Shown: positions 49,079 through 60,135 of the stretch, one piece after another
Numbering within the stretch: position 1 is the stretch's first letter
Layout of the letters: the number at the start of each line of letters is the position of its first letter
NCBI GenBank assembly: GCA_029945445.1
Contig: JAQSCO010000060.1
Span: 124,001-188,000 of the forward strand
Direction: 5' to 3'
DNA from: Lacunisphaera sp.
GTDB taxonomy: Bacteria > Verrucomicrobiota > Verrucomicrobiia > Opitutales > Opitutaceae
DNA: 64,000 bases
Notes under the pieces: model-generated
Told to the model about the DNA's origin: nothing
The model's input: only the letters and a program-made list of their open reading frames with translations
Database searches by the model: none
Translations under genes and position numbers: made by a program

Positions 49079-49627
49079 ATGGCCCGCGCGATCAAGCAGG
49101 AGGAGTTGCAAAGCGATAATACCGTCGGTTTGGCGAGGTGGCTGCTGGGCAAGGCTTTAGTGCGCACGATCGGCGGCGGTCGAATGGAATACATCATCAC
49201 GGAAGTGGAGGCTTACGACGGTGTGCGCGATTTGGCCTGCCATGCGAGCAAGGGACGCACGAAGCGAACCGAGGTCATGTATCAACCGGGAGGAATCTGG
49301 TATGTTTATTTGTGCTACGGGATGCACGAGATGCTGAACCTCGTTACGGGGCCGGCGGACTACCCCGCCGCGGTGCTGATTCGCGGGGTGAACGGCATTC
49401 CCGGGCCGGGGCGGCTGACCAGGCGCCTGCAAATCGACCGGCAGCTCAACGGCCTCTCCGCGCGGCCGGCCAGCGGGCTGCATTTGGTGGACCGGGGCTT
49501 GGCCATTCCTCGCCGGCAGATCAAGTCCGGTCCGCGGATCGGCGTGGATTACGCCGGGCCCGTGTGGGCCCGGAAACCGTGGCGGTTCTACTTTGATCCG
49601 TCGTTCTTGGGTGGGGCGGATTTGTAG
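49079..49627 (+). CDS. mpg: 3-methyladenine DNA glycosylase (AAG/MPG family)
   Basis: A 182-aa AAG-family base-excision glycosylase, removing alkylated purines such as 3-methyladenine. The motifs are [32 protein letters not shown] with the catalytic Glu, [20 protein letters not shown] and [14 protein letters not shown]. The ATG at 49079 has AAGCAAGG ahead of it and is preferred to one 12 codons upstream. It overlaps the convergent DUF3108 gene by 40 bp at the 3' end. Confidence 0.94.
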
Positions 49628-50373
49628 TTGCTCAGGGAAAGGGTCGCGGAGCCGAAGCCGAGCTTCAGCTGCATCTTGACCGGCAGATTGCTCGCGTCCT
49701 GGGAAATCCAGACCTTGATCTCGCCGCCCTTCTTGAAAAGGCCCTTGGGATCCTTTTCCATGCGCGGGATCAGCAACAGTGTCCGGTAGGTGCCGAGCGG
49801 GGTGCGGACTTCCTCGTAACTGTCGGCGTAGATCGAGAGCGGATAGAAATCCCGGCCGAACTGGACGAGCAGGTCGCGCTTCTCACCGGGCTTGAGATTC
49901 CAGTCACGGGTCTGGACGAGCGCGCTGATCAGGTCCACGGGATTGCCCTCGGGAATCGGAATGTCCGTGGTGCGTTCGGTGCGTACGCGGTCGGTGTAGT
50001 GCGCCTGGCGCGCCTTGTAATCGAAGACCATTTCCGTGTCGGTGGCGCGCTTGGGATCGGCGCCGCTTTCCTTGACGCGCATCATCCGGCCGGAGCTTTT
50101 TTCAATCACCACCTCGGCTTGGTTGTCGAAGGCGTAGAGGCCGCGCACGATGCCCCGCGACTTCGTGTCGGTCGTGACGCTCACGACGTCGAGGCCGCCG
50201 AGCTTCTGGTCGTGGGCGGCAATGGTGATGTCGCCCGCGTGGGTGAAGATGGCGAAACCGACCCGGTAGGTGAACGTCTCGCCATCGCGGAACGCCGTGA
50301 ACGGCGCGGCGGTGGCGAGGCAGGGAAGACAGAGGAGCAGGATTTTCTTCACGGTAGCTGGGACAGCAGGCAT
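49588..50373 (-). CDS. Exported DUF3108-domain protein
   Basis: A 261-aa exported protein with signal peptide ([17 protein letters not shown]). The rest is a beta-sandwich-like DUF3108 domain ([18 protein letters not shown], then [20 protein letters not shown] and [20 protein letters not shown]). Members are envelope proteins of unknown function. Its 3' end overlaps mpg by 40 bp; it follows the MBL exonuclease gene on the same strand. Confidence 0.84.
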
Positions 50374-50409
50374 GGGGGAAAGTGCGCCGCGCGTCGAGGT
50401 TTTGCCGGC

Positions 50410-51390
50410 CTAAATCGACAGTTCCATCTGGTTCTGTTGGCCGATGGCCCACGCCTCGATGCCGCGGGCCCGCAGGGTGGCGGCGAATTCCCTGGCGAAA
50501 CCGTGCAGGGTGTAGACGAGCTTGGGCTGCACCTGATCGACGAACGCGAGCAGGTCGGGGAAGTCGGCATGGTCCGACAGCGGGAAGGCCGCGTCGCAGC
50601 CGTTGCGATAGATGGCGCCGTGGTCCATCGCCCAGCCGGTGGCCACGGCAGTGCGTTTCGGGTGGATCCAGGACAACGGTTCGCTCTGGCCCGACATCGG
50701 CGGCGCGATGATGACGTGGCCGGCATAGGCGCTGGTGTCGAGCAGCGCGAACGGCGGCAGCTTCATGCCGAGCTCCGCGTAGCGCCGGGTCATCCTGTAG
50801 CCGTGTGCATGCAGCATGACCGGCAGGCCGGTGCGGCCGACGATCTGCAGCAGCTCCTGGGTCTTGCCCAGGCTATAGGCGTAGAGCACGGGCGTCACGC
50901 GGTCGGCGAGCGCCTGCCGGCAGAAATCGATGAGGCCTTGCTCGATCCCGGCTTGCGGCGGGAACACATAGCGCGGCAGGCCGAAGGTTGTCTCCATGAT
51001 CAGGACATCGGCGCGCGGTGGAGTGCAGGGCTCGGCGGCGAGGCTCGGGCGGAGCTTGAAGTCACCCGTATAGAGCAGCGAACCCTGGTCCGTCGTCGCG
51101 TGCAGCATGGCTGAGCCAAAGATGTGCCCGGCGGGAAAGAGTTTCATCTCACAGCCAAACTCGGCGGCCCACGGCTGGCCGAACTCGAGGATCGTCTCGC
51201 GGCGTTGGCCGGCCATGCGCAGCCGCATCAGGCTGGCGGTGGCGCGGGTCGCGAGGATCTCGCGGTGCGGCCCGATGTGATCGGAGTGCGCGTGCGACAC
51301 GAAGCAACGGGTTTGCGCCCGGCGGGCATCGAGCCACCAGCCGATCTGCGGCAGGTTGACCCCGTCCTTCTGGCGCACTTCCCAAGGCAT
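50410..51390 (-). CDS. MBL-fold exonuclease (beta-CASP/CPSF-like)
   Basis: A 326-aa metallo-beta-lactamase fold nuclease similar to exonucleases found next to DNA ligases or RNA-processing genes. Metal ligands: SHAHSDHIG (HxHxDH), FPAGHIFGSAM, LYTGDFKL and the final PLSDHADFPDL. The LHAHGYRMTRRY region lies in the beta-CASP-like insertion. No ligase is adjacent. It could act on DNA or RNA ends. The ATG at MPWEVRQKDGVNL is chosen. Confidence 0.85.
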   Translation of the reverse strand: MPWEVRQKDGVNLPQIGWWLDARRAQTRCFVSHAHSDHIGPHREILATRATASLMRLRMAGQRRETILEFGQPWAAEFGCEMKLFPAGHIFGSAMLHATTDQGSLLYTGDFKLRPSLAAEPCTPPRADVLIMETTFGLPRYVFPPQAGIEQGLIDFCRQALADRVTPVLYAYSLGKTQELLQIVGRTGLPVMLHAHGYRMTRRYAELGMKLPPFALLDTSAYAGHVIIAPPMSGQSEPLSWIHPKRTAVATGWAMDHGAIYRNGCDAAFPLSDHADFPDLLAFVDQVQPKLVYTLHGFAREFAATLRARGIEAWAIGQQNQMELSI

Positions 51391-51466
51391 GGCGTCACAG
51401 AAAGAACCCAAAACGCGCGAAGTCAAAGGCGGGCTGGTGCGTCCGGGTCCGGCCGGCGTTCTGGCC

Positions 51467-52615
51467 TCAGCGGGCCTCAGCGGTCGCGAAATATTTCTTC
51501 CGGGCGAGCCGCCAGGCCGTGACGAAGAACGCGGTCAGCGGCACGGCGAGCATCATGCCGAGGATGCCGCCGAGGGCCTTGCCCCAGAAGAACACGGCGA
51601 CGATGATCGCCACGGGGTGCAGGCCGGTCTGCCGGCCCATGATGCGGGGCGTCAGCAGCCAGCCCTCGATCGTCTGCACCGCGGCGAATACCGCCACGCA
51701 AACCCCCACCAGATGCAGGCCGCCGCCGGGCTGGAGAAAGGCCAGCGGCAGGGCGATGCTCAACCCCAGGATCGAGCCCAGGTAAGGCACGATGTTGAGC
51801 AACCCGGTCAGCAGGCCGATCGCCAGGCCGAACTTCAGCCCGCCAATCGAGAAACCGGTGGCGAGCAGCACGCCCATGATGAGCCCGATGAGCAGCTGGC
51901 CGCGGAAAAACGCCACCAGGATGCCGAGAAATTCCCGGACCAGGAACACGACGTCGGCGCGATGCTCCGCCTGCAGGAAAGGCAGGTGCGCGGGCAGAGC
52001 CTTGGTGGGATCGTCGTCCGAGAGCAGGAAGAAGAAGAGATAGACGGGGATGACGGCCAGCGAGGCCACAAATCCGAAGAGCCCGAAAATACCCGCGCCC
52101 GCCGACAGGAGGGTGGGGGCGAGCTGTCCGAGGAGGTTTTGCGCCTGCAGGGACAGGCCGTCGAGGGCGGCCCTCACCGTGGCGTTGTCCAGGTAGGGAC
52201 GGATGGCCGCCAGCCACTCCGGGAAATGCAATTCCGCCCAGGCGGTGGTCTTCTGCCACAGCACCGGCAGGTAGGCGATGAACTCCAGAAGTTGGGTCAC
52301 GACCGCCGGGACGAAGGTGAGCAGCAGGGCGGCCATGAACAGCACGATCACCAGGTAGAGCAGGATGACGGCGACCGGCCGCTGCACCTTGAACCGCCGC
52401 TCGAAGACGCTGACCACCGGCCGCATGACCAGGGCGACGATGCCCGCGACCGCCAGCGGCCAGATGACGCCGGAGAAATAGCCAATGAAGCGCGCGACTC
52501 CCGCCAGCAAGAGATAGACGAGCCCCCCGATGCTGCAGATGGCGGCGAAGCCGAGCGCGAAGCCCACGAGCTTGCGCTGGGCGGGGGTGAGGAGCGGCGT
52601 GGAGTCGGCGGGCAT
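51467..52615 (-). CDS. AI-2E/PerM family transport protein
   Basis: A 382-aa inner-membrane protein of the AI-2E (PerM) family with about eight membrane helices, beginning LVGFALGFAAICSIGGLVYL and including the family-typical GLKFGLAIGLLTGLLNIVPYLG segment and the final GGILGMMLAVPLTAF. Substrates of the family range from autoinducers to Na+/H+; none can be assigned. The start at MPADSTPLLTPAQ avoids a 40-codon upstream extension. Confidence 0.9.
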   Translation of the reverse strand: MPADSTPLLTPAQRKLVGFALGFAAICSIGGLVYLLLAGVARFIGYFSGVIWPLAVAGIVALVMRPVVSVFERRFKVQRPVAVILLYLVIVLFMAALLLTFVPAVVTQLLEFIAYLPVLWQKTTAWAELHFPEWLAAIRPYLDNATVRAALDGLSLQAQNLLGQLAPTLLSAGAGIFGLFGFVASLAVIPVYLFFFLLSDDDPTKALPAHLPFLQAEHRADVVFLVREFLGILVAFFRGQLLIGLIMGVLLATGFSIGGLKFGLAIGLLTGLLNIVPYLGSILGLSIALPLAFLQPGGGLHLVGVCVAVFAAVQTIEGWLLTPRIMGRQTGLHPVAIIVAVFFWGKALGGILGMMLAVPLTAFFVTAWRLARKKYFATAEAR

Positions 52616-52744
52616 CGGGCGGTCCGCAGACAGAAAGCAGAGTACAGGGAGGGCAGCAAGCTCGCAGCAGAAGGCGGGAAAAGGCGCCGGGTTTCCTTCT
52701 TTCTTTGATAATCTAGGTAAGGCCGCCCAGCCCATGATTTCAGG

Positions 52745-53061
52745 AATCGCGCCTCCGCTTCGAGCTCGCTGTCCGCACCGACGGTTCGGTGCCCGTCACG
52801 CGGGTGGACGCCATCCGCCTCGCGCTGGGCACAAGCTTCCGTGACATCAGCCGGCTCGACCTCGGTTCCGGCGTGAAGCAGGCTTTGCTCGGTCCGCGGT
52901 CTGCTCGGGGCCGTGGTGGTCTCCCGGTTGCTGGCCGCCGGCTTCCCCAACATGCATTTGAGCAGCCTGCCGGTTCGCCTCGGCACCACGCTGCTCGCCT
53001 GCTGGCTCCCGGCGCGACGGCGGCCAAGGTGGCTCCTATGCTGGTCCTGCGGGCGGAGTGA
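52745..53061 (+). pseudogene. Possible remnant of a broken protein-coding gene
   Basis: The 420-bp gap between the AI-2E and RND genes holds no intact gene. On the plus strand the frame from 52745 reads in a protein-like manner for about 50 codons (RLRFELAVRTDGSVPVTRVD, then ALGTSFRDISRLDLGSGVKQ), but has a TGA just before it and no start codon, and then degenerates into Arg/Gly-rich text while another frame becomes plausible (SRLLAAGFPNMHLSSLP). This looks like a 5'-truncated, frameshifted remnant. I do not recognise the parent family. Confidence 0.35.
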
Positions 53062-55417
53062 GGCCTGCCGCCGGGCATTCCTTCGCCCGCGCGGCGTCGC
53101 GGAGCTTTTTTTCCTCGATGTGGCCGTGGAAGAGCCAGCGGGCGAGTGCCGGCATCAGCAGCATCGCGCCGAGCATGTTGAAGAGGAACATGAACGCGAG
53201 GAGGATGCCCATGTCGGCCTGGAACTTGATGGCGGAGAACGCCCAGGTGCCGACACCGATGGAGAGCGCGAAGCCCGTGAACACGACGGATGTGCCCATC
53301 GTACTGAAGGACATCGTGAGGGCATCCTCGAGGGACATGCCTTCGCGGATTTTTTCCAGCAGGGCCGAGCAGAGGTAGATGCCGTAGTCCACGCCGATAC
53401 CGACGCCCAGCGCCACCACCGGCAGCGTCGAGGTCTTCAAACCAATCTGGAGATAGACCATCAGCGCGTAAGCGAGGTCGGACACGATGATGAGCGGCAG
53501 CACGACGCAGACGGTCGCGCGCCACGAGCGGAAGGAAACCAGGCAAAGGACAATGATCGCACCGTAGAGCCAGATCAGCATGGGGAACTGCGCGGCGTCG
53601 ACGACCTCGTTGGTCGCGGCCATCACGCCGACATTGCCGGTGGCGAGCTGGAACTTGACCTTGTCCGAGACGTTGGCCTCGCGGAAGGCCTTCACGGCGT
53701 CGGTCACGCGCCGGATGGTCTCGGCTTTGTGGTCCTTCAGGTAGATCATCACCGGGATGACGCTGCCATCGTTGTTCAGGAGCCCGGAGGAAGTCTCGAC
53801 GGGCGAAACGGACTGGGCGAGTGCGGCGGGGTTGCGCGCGATGAGCTTCCACTTGAGGCTGCCCTCGTTCCAGCCGGCGTTGATCGTGCGGGCGTAATCA
53901 GGCAGGCAGAGCGTGGACTGCACGCCCTCGACGTTGCGCATGTGCCACGCGAAGCGGTCGACCAGTGCCATGATGTCGTGGTCGATGACGCCGTTGGGCA
54001 CCGTCTCGGCGATGACGGTGATGACGTCGACGCCGATGCTGAACTTGGTAGTGATGGCGGCGGTGTCCTGATTGTAGCGGGAACCCTGCCGCAGCTCCGG
54101 CACGCCCGCGTGCATATCGCCGATGCGGACCTGCTTGGCCTTGACGAAGCCGAAGGCCCACAGGCCCAGCGTGACAGCAATGATGGCCAGCGAGGTGCGG
54201 CCGGTGGTGAAGGCCACGAGCCGCCGCCAGTAGGGCTGGAGGGCGAAGCGCCGGATGTTGACGCGCTTCCGGAAATTCGCCGCCATCGTCGTGTAGGACA
54301 ACAGCACCGGCAGGAAGAAGCGGTCGGTCAGGATGATGAGGGTCACGCCCAGGCTGGCCGTGATCGCGAGTTCCTGGATGATGGGCACCTTGACGAGGTA
54401 GATGGTGAGGAAGCCGACCGTGTCGGTCAGGATCGCGACGGTGCCGGGGATGAACAGGTTGCTGAACGAGGCGCGGGCTGCGAGCTGCTCGTCGCGCCCG
54501 ATGTAGAACTCGTAGCGGAACGAGCGCAGCATCTGCGTGGCGTGGCTCAGCGCGATCGCGAACACCAGGAACGGCACGAGAATCGAGAGCGGGTCGATGC
54601 CGAAGCCGAAGAGGTAGAGCAGGCCCAGCTGCCAGATGACGGCGCACGTGGACGTCAGCAGCGGCAGGATGGTCAGGATGACCGACTGGGAGAAATAATA
54701 GAGCAGGAACGCCGAGATGATGATGGCGACGCCGAAGAACATGAGCACGCCGCGCGCGCCGTCGGTGATGTCGCCGATGACCTTGGCGAACCCAATGATG
54801 TGGATGCTGACGTCGGCCGACTGGTATTTCTGGCGGATGCGGGCCTCGAGGGCGTCGGCCACCTCAGCGTAGACGAGCTTCCGGCCCGTCTGCGGATCCA
54901 CGTCGAGCAGCGAGACGATGACAGCGGCGCCGGTGTAGTCGTTGGACACGAGCATGCCGACGCGGCCGGACTTGAGCACATTCTGCCTCACCCGCTCGAG
55001 GCCGGCGGCGTCGGCGACGAAATCGGCGGGGATGACGTTGCCGCCCTGCAGGCCGTCCTCGACAACCTCCATGTAGCGGACGTTGGGCGTGAAGATGGAG
55101 GTGACCTGCGCGCGGTCGACGCCGGGCAGGTAGAAGGCCTCGTCGGTGACGCGCTTGAGGGTCTGGAAGAACTCCGGCGTGAAGATGTCGCCCTGCTTCG
55201 CGAGGAGGGCAATGACGACGCGGTTGGCGCCGCCGAACTGTTCCTGGTATTTCTTGAAGTTCCGGATGTATTCGTGGTCGCTCGGGAGCTGCTTGTTGAA
55301 GCTCGCGTCGACGTGCGTCTTGGCGGCGAACCAGCCCAGGACCGCGGTCGTGAGAAGGAACAGCACCACGGTCAAGTGGCGGTGCTTGAAGATAAGTTTC
55401 TCGATGCGGGAGATCAT
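53036..55417 (-). CDS. RND/MMPL-superfamily exporter (HAE3-like)
   Basis: A 793-aa inner-membrane transporter of the RND/MMPL superfamily. One membrane helix at residues 13-32 (TVVLFLLTTAVLGWFAA) precedes a large periplasmic domain, six helices follow, and the pattern repeats in the second half: two six-helix bundles around GFAKVIGDITDGARGVLMFF and VVALGVGIGVDYGIYL. Such proteins export lipids or hydrophobic compounds driven by proton motive force. The start MISRIEKLIFKHRHLT is typical. Downstream partners in the same orientation are the YCF48-like, DUF1329 and DUF1302 genes. Confidence 0.9.
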   Translation of the reverse strand: MISRIEKLIFKHRHLTVVLFLLTTAVLGWFAAKTHVDASFNKQLPSDHEYIRNFKKYQEQFGGANRVVIALLAKQGDIFTPEFFQTLKRVTDEAFYLPGVDRAQVTSIFTPNVRYMEVVEDGLQGGNVIPADFVADAAGLERVRQNVLKSGRVGMLVSNDYTGAAVIVSLLDVDPQTGRKLVYAEVADALEARIRQKYQSADVSIHIIGFAKVIGDITDGARGVLMFFGVAIIISAFLLYYFSQSVILTILPLLTSTCAVIWQLGLLYLFGFGIDPLSILVPFLVFAIALSHATQMLRSFRYEFYIGRDEQLAARASFSNLFIPGTVAILTDTVGFLTIYLVKVPIIQELAITASLGVTLIILTDRFFLPVLLSYTTMAANFRKRVNIRRFALQPYWRRLVAFTTGRTSLAIIAVTLGLWAFGFVKAKQVRIGDMHAGVPELRQGSRYNQDTAAITTKFSIGVDVITVIAETVPNGVIDHDIMALVDRFAWHMRNVEGVQSTLCLPDYARTINAGWNEGSLKWKLIARNPAALAQSVSPVETSSGLLNNDGSVIPVMIYLKDHKAETIRRVTDAVKAFREANVSDKVKFQLATGNVGVMAATNEVVDAAQFPMLIWLYGAIIVLCLVSFRSWRATVCVVLPLIIVSDLAYALMVYLQIGLKTSTLPVVALGVGIGVDYGIYLCSALLEKIREGMSLEDALTMSFSTMGTSVVFTGFALSIGVGTWAFSAIKFQADMGILLAFMFLFNMLGAMLLMPALARWLFHGHIEEKKLRDAARAKECPAAGLTPPAGPA

Positions 55418-55433
55418 GGGCGGCGCGAAGCGT

Positions 55434-55490
55434 GGAGGGCTCGCGTCCCGGCGAGCCGCGGCCCCGGCCCCCAGGGACGCGGGCCTGCCA
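55434..55490. repeat. REP-like hairpin ahead of the RND gene
   Basis: GGAG followed by GGCTCGC-GTCCCG-GCGAGCC (perfect 7-bp stem), then after a GC-rich spacer GGGACGCGGGCC, which also pairs with GGCTCGCGTCCC across the element (12 positions with one G-U). It resembles the other REP-like elements but carries GGAG rather than GTAG. Confidence 0.5.
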
Positions 55491-55517
55491 TAAGACCCAA
55501 AAGGTGGGCTGGGGCGT

Positions 55518-56453
55518 TCATGGCTTGGGCAACTCCAACCGCACGGCGCCGGCCTCGCCGACCGCGATGATGGCATTGTTGCCGGCTTCGATCAGGTCGG
55601 CCACGCTCGTGCCGAAATCAGCCGGCTTCCAGTGGGTGAAGGTCTTTCCGGCATCGCGGCTGAGGAAGAAATTGCCGCCCTGGCCGCCGAGCACGATCAC
55701 GCCGTTTTGGAGCCGGGTGCCGCCCATGATCAGCACCTTGACCTCGCTGTTGAGTTGCGCCCAGTTGGTCCCGTGGTCGTCGGAGCGCAGGATGTGGCCG
55801 CGCAGGCCGTAGGCGATGATGCACCCGCCGTCGAGGGGCAGGATGCCGAACAAGGAGCCGTCGTAGGGCACCTCGGCCTTGAGCCAGGTCGCGCCGCCGT
55901 CATGGGAGGCCAGCACGGTGCCGCTCTCGCCGGCGAGGTAAAGGTAGCCGTCGGGGCCCGCGGTGATGCGGTTGAAATGCACCTCATCCGGCGAGGGCCT
56001 GACCGCCGTCCAGGACTGGCCGCCGTCGGCGGTGACGAGAAACTTGCCGTAGGCGCCGACGACGAAGCCGTGCCGGGCGTCGCGGAAAAGCACATCCAGC
56101 CAGACGGTGTCGAGGCCCTGGCCGTCGTCCTGTCGCGACCAGATTTGCCCGCCGTCGGCCGTGGCGAGGATGACGCCGTCGTGCCCGACCGCCCAGCCGT
56201 GCTGCGCGTCGGGGAAGGCAACCCCGGTCAGCATGGCCCGCGTGGGCGCAAGGCTCTGCGTCCAGGTGCGGCCGCCATCGGCCGAGAGGACGATATGGCC
56301 GCGGTCGCCGACGGCGACGAGCTTGTCCCCGGCGCGGACGACATCGAGCAACAGGGCCCTGGCGGCGAGCGGGGCGGGCTCGGAGGACTCGGCGGCGCCC
56401 AGGGGAAGGGCAACGCTGGCAGCCAGCAGGGCGGAAATTAGCCGACTAAGCAT
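55518..56453 (-). CDS. Exported YCF48-like BNR-repeat protein
   Basis: A 311-aa exported beta-propeller protein with signal peptide (LISALLAASVALPLGAAES). It is a YCF48/HCF136-like repeat protein: several Asp-box units of the type SADGGRTWTQS, TADGGQIWSRQ, TADGGQSWTAV, SHDGGATWLKA and SRDAGKTFTHW are spread at about 45-residue spacing. In this context it most likely assists assembly of the neighbouring RND/DUF1329/DUF1302 system rather than photosystem II. The ATG at 56453 starts the signal peptide. Confidence 0.88.
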   Translation of the reverse strand: MLSRLISALLAASVALPLGAAESSEPAPLAARALLLDVVRAGDKLVAVGDRGHIVLSADGGRTWTQSLAPTRAMLTGVAFPDAQHGWAVGHDGVILATADGGQIWSRQDDGQGLDTVWLDVLFRDARHGFVVGAYGKFLVTADGGQSWTAVRPSPDEVHFNRITAGPDGYLYLAGESGTVLASHDGGATWLKAEVPYDGSLFGILPLDGGCIIAYGLRGHILRSDDHGTNWAQLNSEVKVLIMGGTRLQNGVIVLGGQGGNFFLSRDAGKTFTHWKPADFGTSVADLIEAGNNAIIAVGEAGAVRLELPKP

Positions 56454-56500
56454 GGGGTGAACCACGGGAGTGTGCGCCGGACGCCGAGAAACACGCAAGA

Positions 56501-56530
56501 AAAAGGGCGGCCGGTGCGGGCCGCCCTTTT
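56501..56530 (-). terminator. Terminator between the DUF1329 and YCF48-like genes
   Basis: AAAAGGGCGGCC/GGCCGCCCTTTT is a perfect 12-bp stem with a 6-nt loop and T-runs on both strands. It lies 14 bp beyond the DUF1329 stop and before the YCF48-like start, so the DUF1302-DUF1329 pair may be transcribed partly apart from the downstream genes. Confidence 0.88.
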
Positions 56531-56544
56531 GGCTTCAAGTCAAC

Positions 56545-57900
56545 TCAGCGCACGCCTTCCTGGCGCAGCGTGGAGGGCGTGTAGTCCTGCGGCGTGCGGG
56601 TCAGGCCGAAGTCATACATCTTGCTCTCGTTGTCCAGGCCGATGGCGAGGTAGCGGCCGGCGATGAGGTCGGTGTGCACCTCGAGCGTGCTCCAGAAGAT
56701 CTGCGCATCGTAGTAGTTGATGCAATGCGCCTCGGAGACGCGCCAGAGCTGGCCGCGGCCGTCGTATTGGTCGGCGGCGAGGATCTGCCAGCTGTCCTCA
56801 TCGATGTAGAATGTGCGACGGGAATAGACGTGGCTGGTGCCGGGCTTGAGCGTGGCGTCGACGACCCAGACGCGGTGCAGTTCGTAGCGGGTGAGATCCT
56901 GGTTGATGTGGAGGGGCTTCAGGATGTCGCTGTATTTCAGTGAATCGCTGTGGAGCTTGTAGGAATTGTAGGGGACATACATTTCCTTTTTGCCCATCAG
57001 CTTCCACTCGTAGCGGTCGGGTGCGCCGTTGAACATGTCGAACTGGTCCGAAGTGCGCATGCCGTCGGCGGCGGTGCCGGGGTTGTCGTAGGCGACGTTC
57101 GGAGCGCGGCGCACGCGGCGCTGGCCGGTGTTGTAGAGCCACGCGCGGCGCGGTTCCTTCACCTGGTCCATCGTCTCGTGTACGACGAGGATGGAGCCGG
57201 CGAGGCGGGCGGGCGCGGTGACGGCCTGCTTGAAGTAGATAAGCACGTTGTCGAGGTCCTTCTCCTGGATGCCGTCGCGGCAGTAGTTGAAGAGGAACTC
57301 ATCCTCGAAATCCACGAGGGTGTAGCTGCCGTTGCGCTGCGGGGCCGCCTGGCTGATGCTGCGGTTGGCCGCGACACCGCGATAGCGGGTCAGGTGGTTC
57401 CAGATGGCCTCCAGGCCGCTCGCCGGGATCGGGAACGGGATGCCGACGACCGAGCCGGAGACGCCGTTGCCGCCAGTGGTGAGCGCGGCGGTGGTGGCAT
57501 GCTCCTTCGTGGCGTCGTAGACCCGCTGCGGGTTCGAGGCGCTGCGGTGCGATGCATAGACCGGCATGACGTAGTCGGGGTAGGCCTTGAGCAGGGCGAG
57601 GTGCCCCGGGGTCAGCTTGTCGGCATACTTGTCGGCGTTGGCGGCGCTGATGGTGAAGAGCACCTGGTCGCCCTTGAAGGGATCAGGATGATGCATCCCG
57701 GTCTTGTAGCCGGCGGGCGCGGTTGTTTGGCCGCCGGTCCAGGCCGGGATGGAGCCGTCGGCATTGCCGGCCTTTTCCCCGCCAAGCGGGGTGAGGTCGT
57801 TGCCGAGGCGGTTGGCGTCGGCGGCGGAGATCGCGGCCGAGGCCAGGACCGCCCCGGCGAGGAAACCGAGGGAAGAGAGCAAAAGGGTTTTCGTTTTCAT
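56545..57900 (-). CDS. Exported DUF1329 protein
   Basis: A 451-aa exported protein of the DUF1329 family, which has a LolA/LolB-like fold predicted to bind lipids. Signal peptide KTKTLLLSSLGFLAGAVLAS, then the conserved N-terminal part (ADANRLGNDLTPLGGEKAGN) and a C-terminal WRVSEAHCINYYDAQIFWST. It directly follows the DUF1302 gene (18 bp). DUF1302/DUF1329 pairs are found with RND exporters in Proteobacteria; the role is not settled. Confidence 0.9.
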   Translation of the reverse strand: MKTKTLLLSSLGFLAGAVLASAAISAADANRLGNDLTPLGGEKAGNADGSIPAWTGGQTTAPAGYKTGMHHPDPFKGDQVLFTISAANADKYADKLTPGHLALLKAYPDYVMPVYASHRSASNPQRVYDATKEHATTAALTTGGNGVSGSVVGIPFPIPASGLEAIWNHLTRYRGVAANRSISQAAPQRNGSYTLVDFEDEFLFNYCRDGIQEKDLDNVLIYFKQAVTAPARLAGSILVVHETMDQVKEPRRAWLYNTGQRRVRRAPNVAYDNPGTAADGMRTSDQFDMFNGAPDRYEWKLMGKKEMYVPYNSYKLHSDSLKYSDILKPLHINQDLTRYELHRVWVVDATLKPGTSHVYSRRTFYIDEDSWQILAADQYDGRGQLWRVSEAHCINYYDAQIFWSTLEVHTDLIAGRYLAIGLDNESKMYDFGLTRTPQDYTPSTLRQEGVR

Positions 57901-57918
57901 GTGGTAAGTCGGCAGGGG

Positions 57919-59934
57919 TTAGAACGAATACTTCAGGTTGCAGGAGACGTAGTCGCGATCGTTGATCAGATTGTAGCGGCCGGCCCCGAAGAAGTTCACG
58001 TAGCGGAGGTCGAGCGCCCAGGCATTCTGGAACGTGAACTCCGCGCCGACGGTGACGGACTTGCGCCCGTGGAGGAAGTTGCCCATCGGCAGCGGGGTGT
58101 TGCCGCCGACATCGTGGGAGAAGACGAAGAGCGGCGAGACGTTCACGCCGTTGTAGACGTTGTTGTAGTCGAGGCGGCCGACGAGCTGGTAGCCCCAGGA
58201 GAATTTGTCGGCGAAGGCCGCGGCGGGCTCGGAAGCGGGCGGAATCCCCGACGCGTTGTTGCCCGAGTTGGTCATGTAGTTGACGTCGCCGCTGACGAAG
58301 GTGCCGGGGCCGTCGAAGCGCAGGCTGCTCTTCGTGGGCAGGTCCGCGTTCACGAAGCCCGCCTCCGCGAGGAGGGTGGTCTGCTGGGCGCCCAGCAGGC
58401 CCTTGCCGACCCAGGTGGCGGTCATCTGGCCGGTCCAGACCTTGAGTCGCTGGTAGCCCGCGACGTATTCGCTGAGACCGATGGCGGGTTTGCCCGTGGC
58501 CGCGAGCGCCGCCGAGATCTGGTTGTTCGCGGAGAACCGGGCACTGAGCGGTGCAAGCGAGGCGAAGAGCAGCTCGACGTCGTCCACCTGCAGCGGCTGG
58601 TTGGTACGGTAGCTCAGTTCGCCCTGGAGAGCAACGCCAGCCAGGCTCGTGTTGAAGCTGGCACCGAACAGATGGATGTCCTTGGGAAACTCGATGATGT
58701 AACGGCCAGTGGCGGCGGCGAGGAGAAGTTCGCGCTGGGCGAGCTGGCCGGTGACTCCCGCGACCGTCGCATAGAACGGCTGCAGGGCGGCTGGGAGGGC
58801 GCCGGCCGGAACGCCGGTCAAGGTGGCGCCGATGAGGGTCGAGAGCGCGCCGCCAATGACAGCGGGATCCGCGGTGCCGAGGGCGGCCCCGAGGCTGGCC
58901 CCGAGCAGGGGGCTCAGGATGGCACCGGCATCGGCGCCCGCCTTGGCCCCGTTGACGGGGACGGTCGGGGTGGTGGCGGAAATCACCGGCAGCCGGCTGT
59001 GATAACTCATGTAGTAGAGGCCGAATTCCGTGTCCTTCAGGCCGTGGGCGAGCCACTTCAGGTTGACGCCGTATTGGCCGGCGCTGCCGGGCTCGCGGTC
59101 AACGCCGCGCGGGATGGCGCCGAGGGTGGAGAAATCGTTTATCGCGCCGAAACCGAGGTAAACCTTGGTGCCTCCCTTGGCGACAAAGTCATTGGTGCTG
59201 AAATAAGTGCCCGGCGGGTCGACGCGGGTGCGCTGCCAGTCGAAAAGGTAGAAGGCCTCGAGGCTGAGTTCATCCGTGAGGTTGACGGAGATGGACGCCA
59301 TGGTGAGGGGGCGGAGCGCCTCCTTGATTTCGGAACCGGGCGTGCGCAGCTTGGCGACGTCGATGGGGTTGATGGAATTGACGCCGTTCGGGATGAAGGT
59401 GCTTTCACCCCAGCTCAGGACCTGGCGGCCGAATCGGAAGGTGGTCGGCATCCCGCCGATGGTCTCCTTGGTGTAGACGTAGGCGTCGAGCAGTTCGGCC
59501 CCCTCGCCGACGATTTTCCGGGCTTCGTCGCCCAGCTGGGTGCGCTGACGGGTGCCGTTGGAGTTGACGAAGTCGTTGAAGTAAAAGCCGCGCACGAACA
59601 GGCCGGTATTCAAGTATTTGAGCTGCAGGTCGTGGCTGGCCTTCACCAGGAACGAGGACACGCCACTCCTGTAATTGAGGTTGCCGTCGTCGGCGTTGAC
59701 CGAGCGCTGCTGGCCGGCGACACCGCCAAAGGTATTGGTGATGCCGTAGAGCGCGGGATCCGGGTTGTCCAAGCGGTAGAGACCGCCGACCGAGATCGTC
59801 GTGTCGAAGGTGCCCTTGACGTCGCCGAGGGCAAAGACGAACGCCTGAGCGGCGGGCGCCAGTCCGAGGGCAACAGCCACGCCGGCAAACACCGGGCGGC
59901 GCAAACAGTGGAGGAGTGCTTTGCTTAGGTTCAT
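57919..59934 (-). CDS. DUF1302 outer-membrane protein
   Basis: A 671-aa protein of the DUF1302 family, predicted outer-membrane beta-barrel. Signal peptide FAGVAVALGLAPAAQAF, then GDVKGTFDTTISVGGLYRLD and the typical LGDEARKIVGEGAELLDAYV, RFGRQVLSWGESTFIPNGVN; the last residues (DYVSCNLKYSF) end in Phe as in assembled barrels. Start MNLSKALLHCLRR is chosen over one five codons upstream. First gene of the DUF1302-DUF1329-YCF48-RND run. Confidence 0.9.
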   Translation of the reverse strand: MNLSKALLHCLRRPVFAGVAVALGLAPAAQAFVFALGDVKGTFDTTISVGGLYRLDNPDPALYGITNTFGGVAGQQRSVNADDGNLNYRSGVSSFLVKASHDLQLKYLNTGLFVRGFYFNDFVNSNGTRQRTQLGDEARKIVGEGAELLDAYVYTKETIGGMPTTFRFGRQVLSWGESTFIPNGVNSINPIDVAKLRTPGSEIKEALRPLTMASISVNLTDELSLEAFYLFDWQRTRVDPPGTYFSTNDFVAKGGTKVYLGFGAINDFSTLGAIPRGVDREPGSAGQYGVNLKWLAHGLKDTEFGLYYMSYHSRLPVISATTPTVPVNGAKAGADAGAILSPLLGASLGAALGTADPAVIGGALSTLIGATLTGVPAGALPAALQPFYATVAGVTGQLAQRELLLAAATGRYIIEFPKDIHLFGASFNTSLAGVALQGELSYRTNQPLQVDDVELLFASLAPLSARFSANNQISAALAATGKPAIGLSEYVAGYQRLKVWTGQMTATWVGKGLLGAQQTTLLAEAGFVNADLPTKSSLRFDGPGTFVSGDVNYMTNSGNNASGIPPASEPAAAFADKFSWGYQLVGRLDYNNVYNGVNVSPLFVFSHDVGGNTPLPMGNFLHGRKSVTVGAEFTFQNAWALDLRYVNFFGAGRYNLINDRDYVSCNLKYSF

Positions 59935-60135
59935 AACTTGGTGCAACAAATGCGGCCGCCATAATTGGGGCGCGCTGGGTTAGGGGTGTGAGGTAGCAAG
60001 CCGGTCGGCTTGGGGGTTTACTGGCCGCGATAAAGTGGTTTTTCGGCGGGGACTTCAAGTGCTAAACCACGCTGCGGCATGGAGTTTGTTTCATTAGCGT
60101 TTTGACGCCCGGGGCAAATCGGCAACCGTGGGACG

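Follow-up and report, generated by a model that had tools for sequence, protein, structure and literature searches.

Bacteria that degrade oily compounds repeatedly carry genes for DUF1302 and DUF1329 proteins, two families listed in Pfam as being of unknown function, together with YCF48 and RND genes. The occurrence of these genes in a Lacunisphaera genome raises the question of which hydrophobic cargo such a set would carry across the cell envelope, and in which direction. The locus was analysed within a 64,000-nucleotide stretch of contig JAQSCO010000060.1 (assembly GCA_029945445.1), hereafter the window, which a first-pass annotation had read as containing a trans-envelope route composed of an inner-membrane pump, a periplasmic carrier and an outer-membrane barrel.

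Organisation of the four-gene cassette

Four genes lie on the minus strand in the transcription order A (DUF1302), B (DUF1329), C (YCF48) and D (RND/MMPL) (Table 1). Strong family matches bore out the four same-strand genes called in the first-pass annotation, with the outer boundaries placed correctly, and its assignment to a likely Verrucomicrobium was right at the phylum level, the family being Opitutaceae. The ATG start of A at 59934 is conserved among aligned relatives. B scores 545 bits against PF07044 (cut-off 23.1) and has an additional LolA_like match, while the start codon of C was picked by inspection, so the 56453 end is approximate. TIGR00921 (HAE3) is the best NCBIfam model for D (E 2e-51), under its curated cut-off. 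A Pfam search of the cassette and its immediate neighbours gave no membrane fusion protein or TolC-type factor, the partners of HAE1-type tripartite RND pumps.

Table 1 Features of the cassette in the window
Feature	Position	Strand	Length and basis
A: DUF1302 outer-membrane beta-barrel (predicted, AmeA-like)	57919-59934	-	671 aa; PF06980 E 1.3e-162
B: DUF1329 periplasmic LolA-like carrier (predicted, AmeB-like)	56545-57900	-	451 aa; PF07044 E 1.2e-163
C: YCF48/BNR beta-propeller, N-terminal signal-like segment (AmeC-like)	55518-~56453	-	PF14870 E 8e-26
D: RND/MMPL pump, HAE3 type (AmeD-like)	53036-55417	-	793 aa; PF03176 E 5e-31
Promoter-like element for A: TTGAAG, 18 nt, TTTATC	60029-60058	-	read in sequence
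Terminator-like hairpin, probable attenuator	~56500-56530	-	read and folded

An alignment of relatives shows recurring CTTGAA-like and CTTCAT/CTTTAT-like boxes upstream of A, which form a putative promoter; no palindromic operator common to the A upstream regions of these relatives was found. Upstream of A, the divergent uvrA gene begins after about 200 nt. The cassette is followed (window 49588-52735) by genes for an AI-2E transporter, a metallo-beta-lactamase exonuclease-like protein (similar to TIGR04122 at a score below its cut-off) and a DUF3108 protein, which are also found 3' of the cassette in many Opitutaceae. Together with uvrA they make up a conserved neighbourhood, in which DNA repair is mixed with envelope genes.

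Distribution and ancestry of the cassette

Among named records, those most similar to the window are Opitutaceae MAGs, above all a Lacunisphaera MAG with a B protein 88-89% identical to that of the window. Among 194 genomes from across the phylum, strong matches to both DUF1329 and DUF1302 were limited to 14 Opitutaceae genomes and a single further genome of the order, and the two genes adjoined each other in every one of the 16 loci. The A-B-C-D order was kept in all 16, indicating that the quartet is conserved as a set and is not a chance juxtaposition, the point on which a neighbourhood survey had been proposed in the first-pass annotation. uvrA lies upstream in 14 of the 16 loci (15 read at 19 kb, plus the window). 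Within the family, about half of the genomes (62/120) have a strong DUF1329 match. Eighty further loci from public genomes gave the quartet wherever both sides were covered, including one Gammaproteobacteria-labelled MAG and two Acidobacteriota MAGs, for all three of which MAG contamination is possible. Within Verrucomicrobiota the cassette is thus nearly confined to Opitutaceae, and it also occurs in Acidobacteriota and Pseudomonadota.

The same gene order was observed in plasmid cassettes of Massilia, Azospirillum, Cupriavidus, Diaphorobacter, Azoarcus and Pseudomonas. On the Vibrio alfacsensis plasmid pYa108 (L131), B precedes A, and the cassette is divergent from aromatic-type catabolism genes, with partition and replication genes nearby. 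Two P. aeruginosa plasmids (L038 and L132) carry A-B pairs with no adjoining C-D, one beside an acyl-CoA ligase and a thiolase gene and the other followed by a DUF1254 gene; B of the pair beside the ligase and thiolase genes is 61% identical to B of the window.

In trees of B and of D, most Opitutaceae sequences group together, with Gammaproteobacteria and Acidobacteriota MAGs as nearest neighbours and far from the aromatic-type cassettes on Pseudomonadota plasmids. Two Opitutales rows of the B tree are weakly placed with Acidobacteriota and the Gammaproteobacteria MAG, and D groups with the pumps of other quartets from three phyla (in a tree without AmeD). B is strongly constrained, with a mean column identity of 76%. 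The trees and the uvrA-adjacent position suggest that the locus is old and mainly vertically inherited in Opitutaceae, and old transfers of the cassette between phyla are likely. A recent arrival of a catabolic island in the window's genome was ruled out by the uvrA-adjacent site in most of the family and the grouping of most Opitutaceae B and D sequences.

A conserved hairpin between B and C

The terminator noted after the DUF1329 gene in the first-pass annotation was confirmed as a stem-loop in the B-C gap (56501-56530), in which about 12 base pairs enclose a 6-nt loop and lead into a T run. Its folding z-score is -3.2, with 1 of 200 shuffles as good, and a simple terminator scan did not report it. 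In a count over 100 loci, a terminator-like hairpin lies within 120 nt 3' of the stop codon of B in 50; the frequency is 2-7% after A, C or D and 2-6% in shuffled sequences (6% for B). Of the 23 loci closest to the window (duplicates removed), 22 have the hairpin, as does one P. aeruginosa plasmid cassette (L040). The B-C hairpins have 38 different stem sequences, indicating that the structure is conserved and its sequence is not.

The hairpin divides the set into A-B and C-D units, consistent with the two separate loci of P. putida (PMC10866462). Its likely effect, judged from sequence, is that C-D is transcribed less than A-B. This fits the proteome of Ca. Anaerobenzenivorax ORM2a, in which the spectrum counts of the porin-like (106) and DUF1329 (158) proteins exceed those of the YCF48 (65) and MMPL (60) proteins (PMC13101534). 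A conserved terminator at this position suggests a rule of stoichiometry, with many barrels and carriers and few pumps.

Predicted structures of the barrel and carrier

The model of A (pLDDT 83) matches the 18-strand channels of the OprD/Occ family (Z ~23; rmsd 3.2-3.5 A over ~305 residues, 10-12% identity). Around residues 327-405, this model has an extra helical stretch besides the strands of the barrel. The fold matches listed for A did not include FadL, to which A may still be similar, and A matches PF06980 only and not the FadL family PF03349, which is no argument against a FadL-like role. For B, the model (pLDDT 86) resembles Porphyromonas LolA3 (9tp6), the DUF1329 structure 4z48 and LolA/LolB proteins, so that B belongs to the DUF1329 family both by its PF07044 score and by a predicted LolA/LolB-like fold. 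A sequence search against solved structures was empty for A and did not turn up any relative for B.

The propeller and the pump

C matched solved Ycf48 structures by sequence (E 2e-26), and the YCF48 protein is an integral member of the set, not a bystander. D gave matches to MmpL and HpnN proteins. Its TM4 carries SHxxQ, where the sequence of the MmpL5 structure has D-Y in both halves, and its TM10 carries a conserved DYGIY. SHxxQ is invariant in 81 aligned D homologues, and every plasmid pump checked has it, while DYG is absent from five Beta-/Alphaproteobacterial aromatic-type pumps. From these motifs we infer that D has one canonical proton-relay site, not two. SHxxQ, seen in TM4 of D and of the pumps of L040-L042, L116, L119, L121 and L127-L131, is a possible lineage signature of an altered proton relay.

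D scores 61.7 bits against the HpnN model, whose cut-off is 751.85. A hopene cyclase was not matched in the window's genome, and none was above the cut-off in the 120 Opitutaceae genomes, by which hopanoid export was ruled out.

Association with beta-oxidation and FadL

The window's genome encodes a FadB-type enzyme, acyl-CoA dehydrogenases and ETF, and gave no match to FadL (PF03349). A relative, G010, has a second copy of the cassette (L030, G010:C25:791500-810500) that lies away from uvrA and inside a beta-oxidation cluster. It is flanked on one side by genes for an acyl-CoA ligase and a FadB-type enzyme, and on the other by those for a helix-turn-helix/M78-type regulator, a thiolase and a second FadB-type enzyme; genes for ETF and acyl-CoA dehydrogenase lie further out. 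The regulator is a candidate fatty-acid responsive regulator.

Across the 120 Opitutaceae genomes, the cassette is associated with the FadB-type enzyme when counted by genome (p 1e-4) and not significantly when counted by genus (p 0.11). Among genomes without FadL, the enzyme is present in 18 of 38 with the cassette versus 1 of 34 without (p 1e-5), in a split that was chosen after seeing the data, among genomes that are related and with cut-offs for 'strong' matches that were set by eye from the result tables. This association gave a median p of 0.002 with one genome per genus, and p values of 1e-4 and 0.015 at a completeness of at least 90%. No link was seen in genomes with FadL (6/24 with the cassette versus 4/24 without, p 0.72), and acyl-CoA dehydrogenase followed the same pattern across the split. 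Altogether, 28 of the 29 genomes with a FadB-type enzyme have the cassette or FadL. The pattern supports the hypothesis of a FadL substitute, for which it is what one would look like. Strict coupling to beta-oxidation was ruled out by the many cassette carriers without a FadB-type enzyme, and since these include 20 of the 38 FadL-less carriers, fatty-acid catabolism is not the whole story.

Possible function of the cassette

The reading that we favour, and to which we would give about an even chance, is that an AmeABCD-type system transports hydrophobic molecules across the envelope, the likeliest cargo being fatty acids or related lipids and uptake being favoured where FadL is missing. D would act as a proton-driven HAE3-type RND pump, with the C propeller on its periplasmic side, and would exchange its hydrophobic cargo with B, the LolA-like carrier that may shuttle it between D and the outer-membrane barrel A. 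The cargo in Opitutaceae would most likely be long-chain fatty acids or related lipids, and their uptake for beta-oxidation would be the favoured use in FadL-less strains. As an effect of the hairpin after B, the A and B proteins would probably outnumber C and D. The fold models of A and B, the conservation of the set and the published experiments on AmeABCD of Castellaniella defragrans (PMC6394551) all speak for a trans-envelope route. The pump, carrier and barrel of the first-pass reading are thus supported, whereas the genomic context in Opitutaceae points more to fatty-acid handling, perhaps uptake, than to export. Support for the favoured reading comes from the Tween20 phenotype of P. putida, in which PP_0765/PP_0766 and PP_2018/PP_2019 share a growth phenotype (PMC10866462), from the copy in G010, from the P. 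aeruginosa plasmid pair beside acyl-CoA ligase and thiolase genes and from the association in FadL-less genomes. Counted against fatty acids are the position of the window's copy beside uvrA, not beside catabolic genes, and the interpretation of AmeABCD as an exporter.

Efflux for tolerance, in which D would draw toxic hydrophobes such as terpenes, aromatics and solvents out of the inner membrane or the periplasm, with B and C as the link to A for their release, is a possibility that we regard as somewhat unlikely. An AmeABCD deletion mutant grows less on unmodified monoterpenes and accumulates slightly more Nile Red, and the authors interpreted the system, with a distinct AmeD lineage in conserved cassettes, as an exporter; yet real-time Nile Red efflux was equal in wild type and mutant (PMC6394551). 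A Betaproteobacterial quartet is co-regulated with aromatic pathways and has been suggested to act in solvent stress (PMC6449761), and many plasmid cassettes adjoin aromatic catabolism genes, whereas the Opitutaceae locus by uvrA is without catabolic or stress genes except for the second copy of G010 in its beta-oxidation cluster. Moreover, the need for the P. putida homologues on Tween20 is more directly explained by import (PMC10866462). A housekeeping role, with an endogenous envelope lipid moved between the inner and outer membranes independently of diet, as by HpnN or MmpL3, appears quite improbable. The fixed chromosomal site by uvrA in most of Opitutaceae, the strong constraint on B, the half of cassette carriers without a FadB-type enzyme and the envelope lipids moved by HAE3/MmpL relatives of D would suit it, but roughly half of the Opitutaceae genomes do without the cassette, which is hence not essential, the cyclase for hopanoids, the best-known HAE3 cargo, is unmatched as described above, and such a role would not predict the FadL-dependent link to beta-oxidation. 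That A-B is a passive barrel-carrier pair merely adjacent to an independent pump unit, C-D, is very improbable: the conserved hairpin, the A-B pairs on some plasmids and the split loci of P. putida would agree with two modules, but the order of the quartet is constant in three phyla, and in P. putida the genes share one fitness phenotype and predictions place the DUF1329 protein in contact with the barrel as well as the pump (PMC10866462).

Within the favoured reading of lipid transport, a more specific version is an energised, FadL-independent import of long-chain fatty acids, in which A and B would work inward, D and C would deliver to the inner membrane, the cassette would replace FadL in Opitutaceae, and transcription would largely stop after A-B, giving more barrels and carriers than pumps. 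Taken as a whole this version is unlikely. Import by an RND pump is the opposite of the usual RND direction. If the cassette does substitute for FadL, a transport system of unsettled role would gain a concrete cargo and direction to test, and lipid uptake by FadL-less Verrucomicrobiota with beta-oxidation would be explained.

Comparison with known systems

The pumps HpnN and MmpL3/4/5 are homologous to D as RND/MMPL inner-membrane proteins with hydrophobic cargo, but no DUF1302/DUF1329 partners are known for them. FadL would share with A the proposed role in outer-membrane fatty-acid entry; it differs in family (PF03349 versus PF06980), in that the A model fits OprD/Occ best and in that A needs carrier and pump partners.

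A DUF1302 protein has been identified in the outer membrane of Delftia (PMC3110197). The P. putida genes resemble the cassette in combining a DUF1302/DUF1329 pair with a periplasmic protein and an RND pump that are jointly needed on Tween20, but lie in two separate loci, whereas here one cassette has a terminator between its halves. The 'Nanopod' cluster of ORM2a likewise encodes a porin-like protein, DUF1329, YCF48 and MMPL proteins, and differs by two extra genes between the halves, an association with benzene degradation and a B protein distant from other DUF1329 proteins (PMC13101534).

A literature search, incomplete in coverage, did not find the set described in Verrucomicrobiota, and as far as seen the conservation of the B-C hairpin, the G010 copy in a beta-oxidation cluster and the FadL-dependent association with the FadB-type enzyme are undescribed. 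The closest counterpart is AmeABCD, compared here by published composition and order. Both comprise the same four families in the same order, namely a DUF1302 barrel, DUF1329/LolA-like and YCF48-like (COG4447) periplasmic parts and a HAE3-type RND pump (COG1033), with the outer-membrane barrel and its LolA-like periplasmic partner recognised here by fold and their localisation predicted. The present cassette differs in its Verrucomicrobiota host and its place beside uvrA, the Castellaniella copy lying in a monoterpene island, and on the Opitutaceae side it has a conserved B-C hairpin and, in relatives, a link to beta-oxidation. A co-regulated quartet of the same families has also been reported in Betaproteobacteria (PMC6449761). 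The complete set in a Verrucomicrobium, as the first-pass annotation had it, is present and widens the known range; given AmeABCD (PMC6394551) and the Betaproteobacterial quartet, it extends the range only, of a system that is itself not new.
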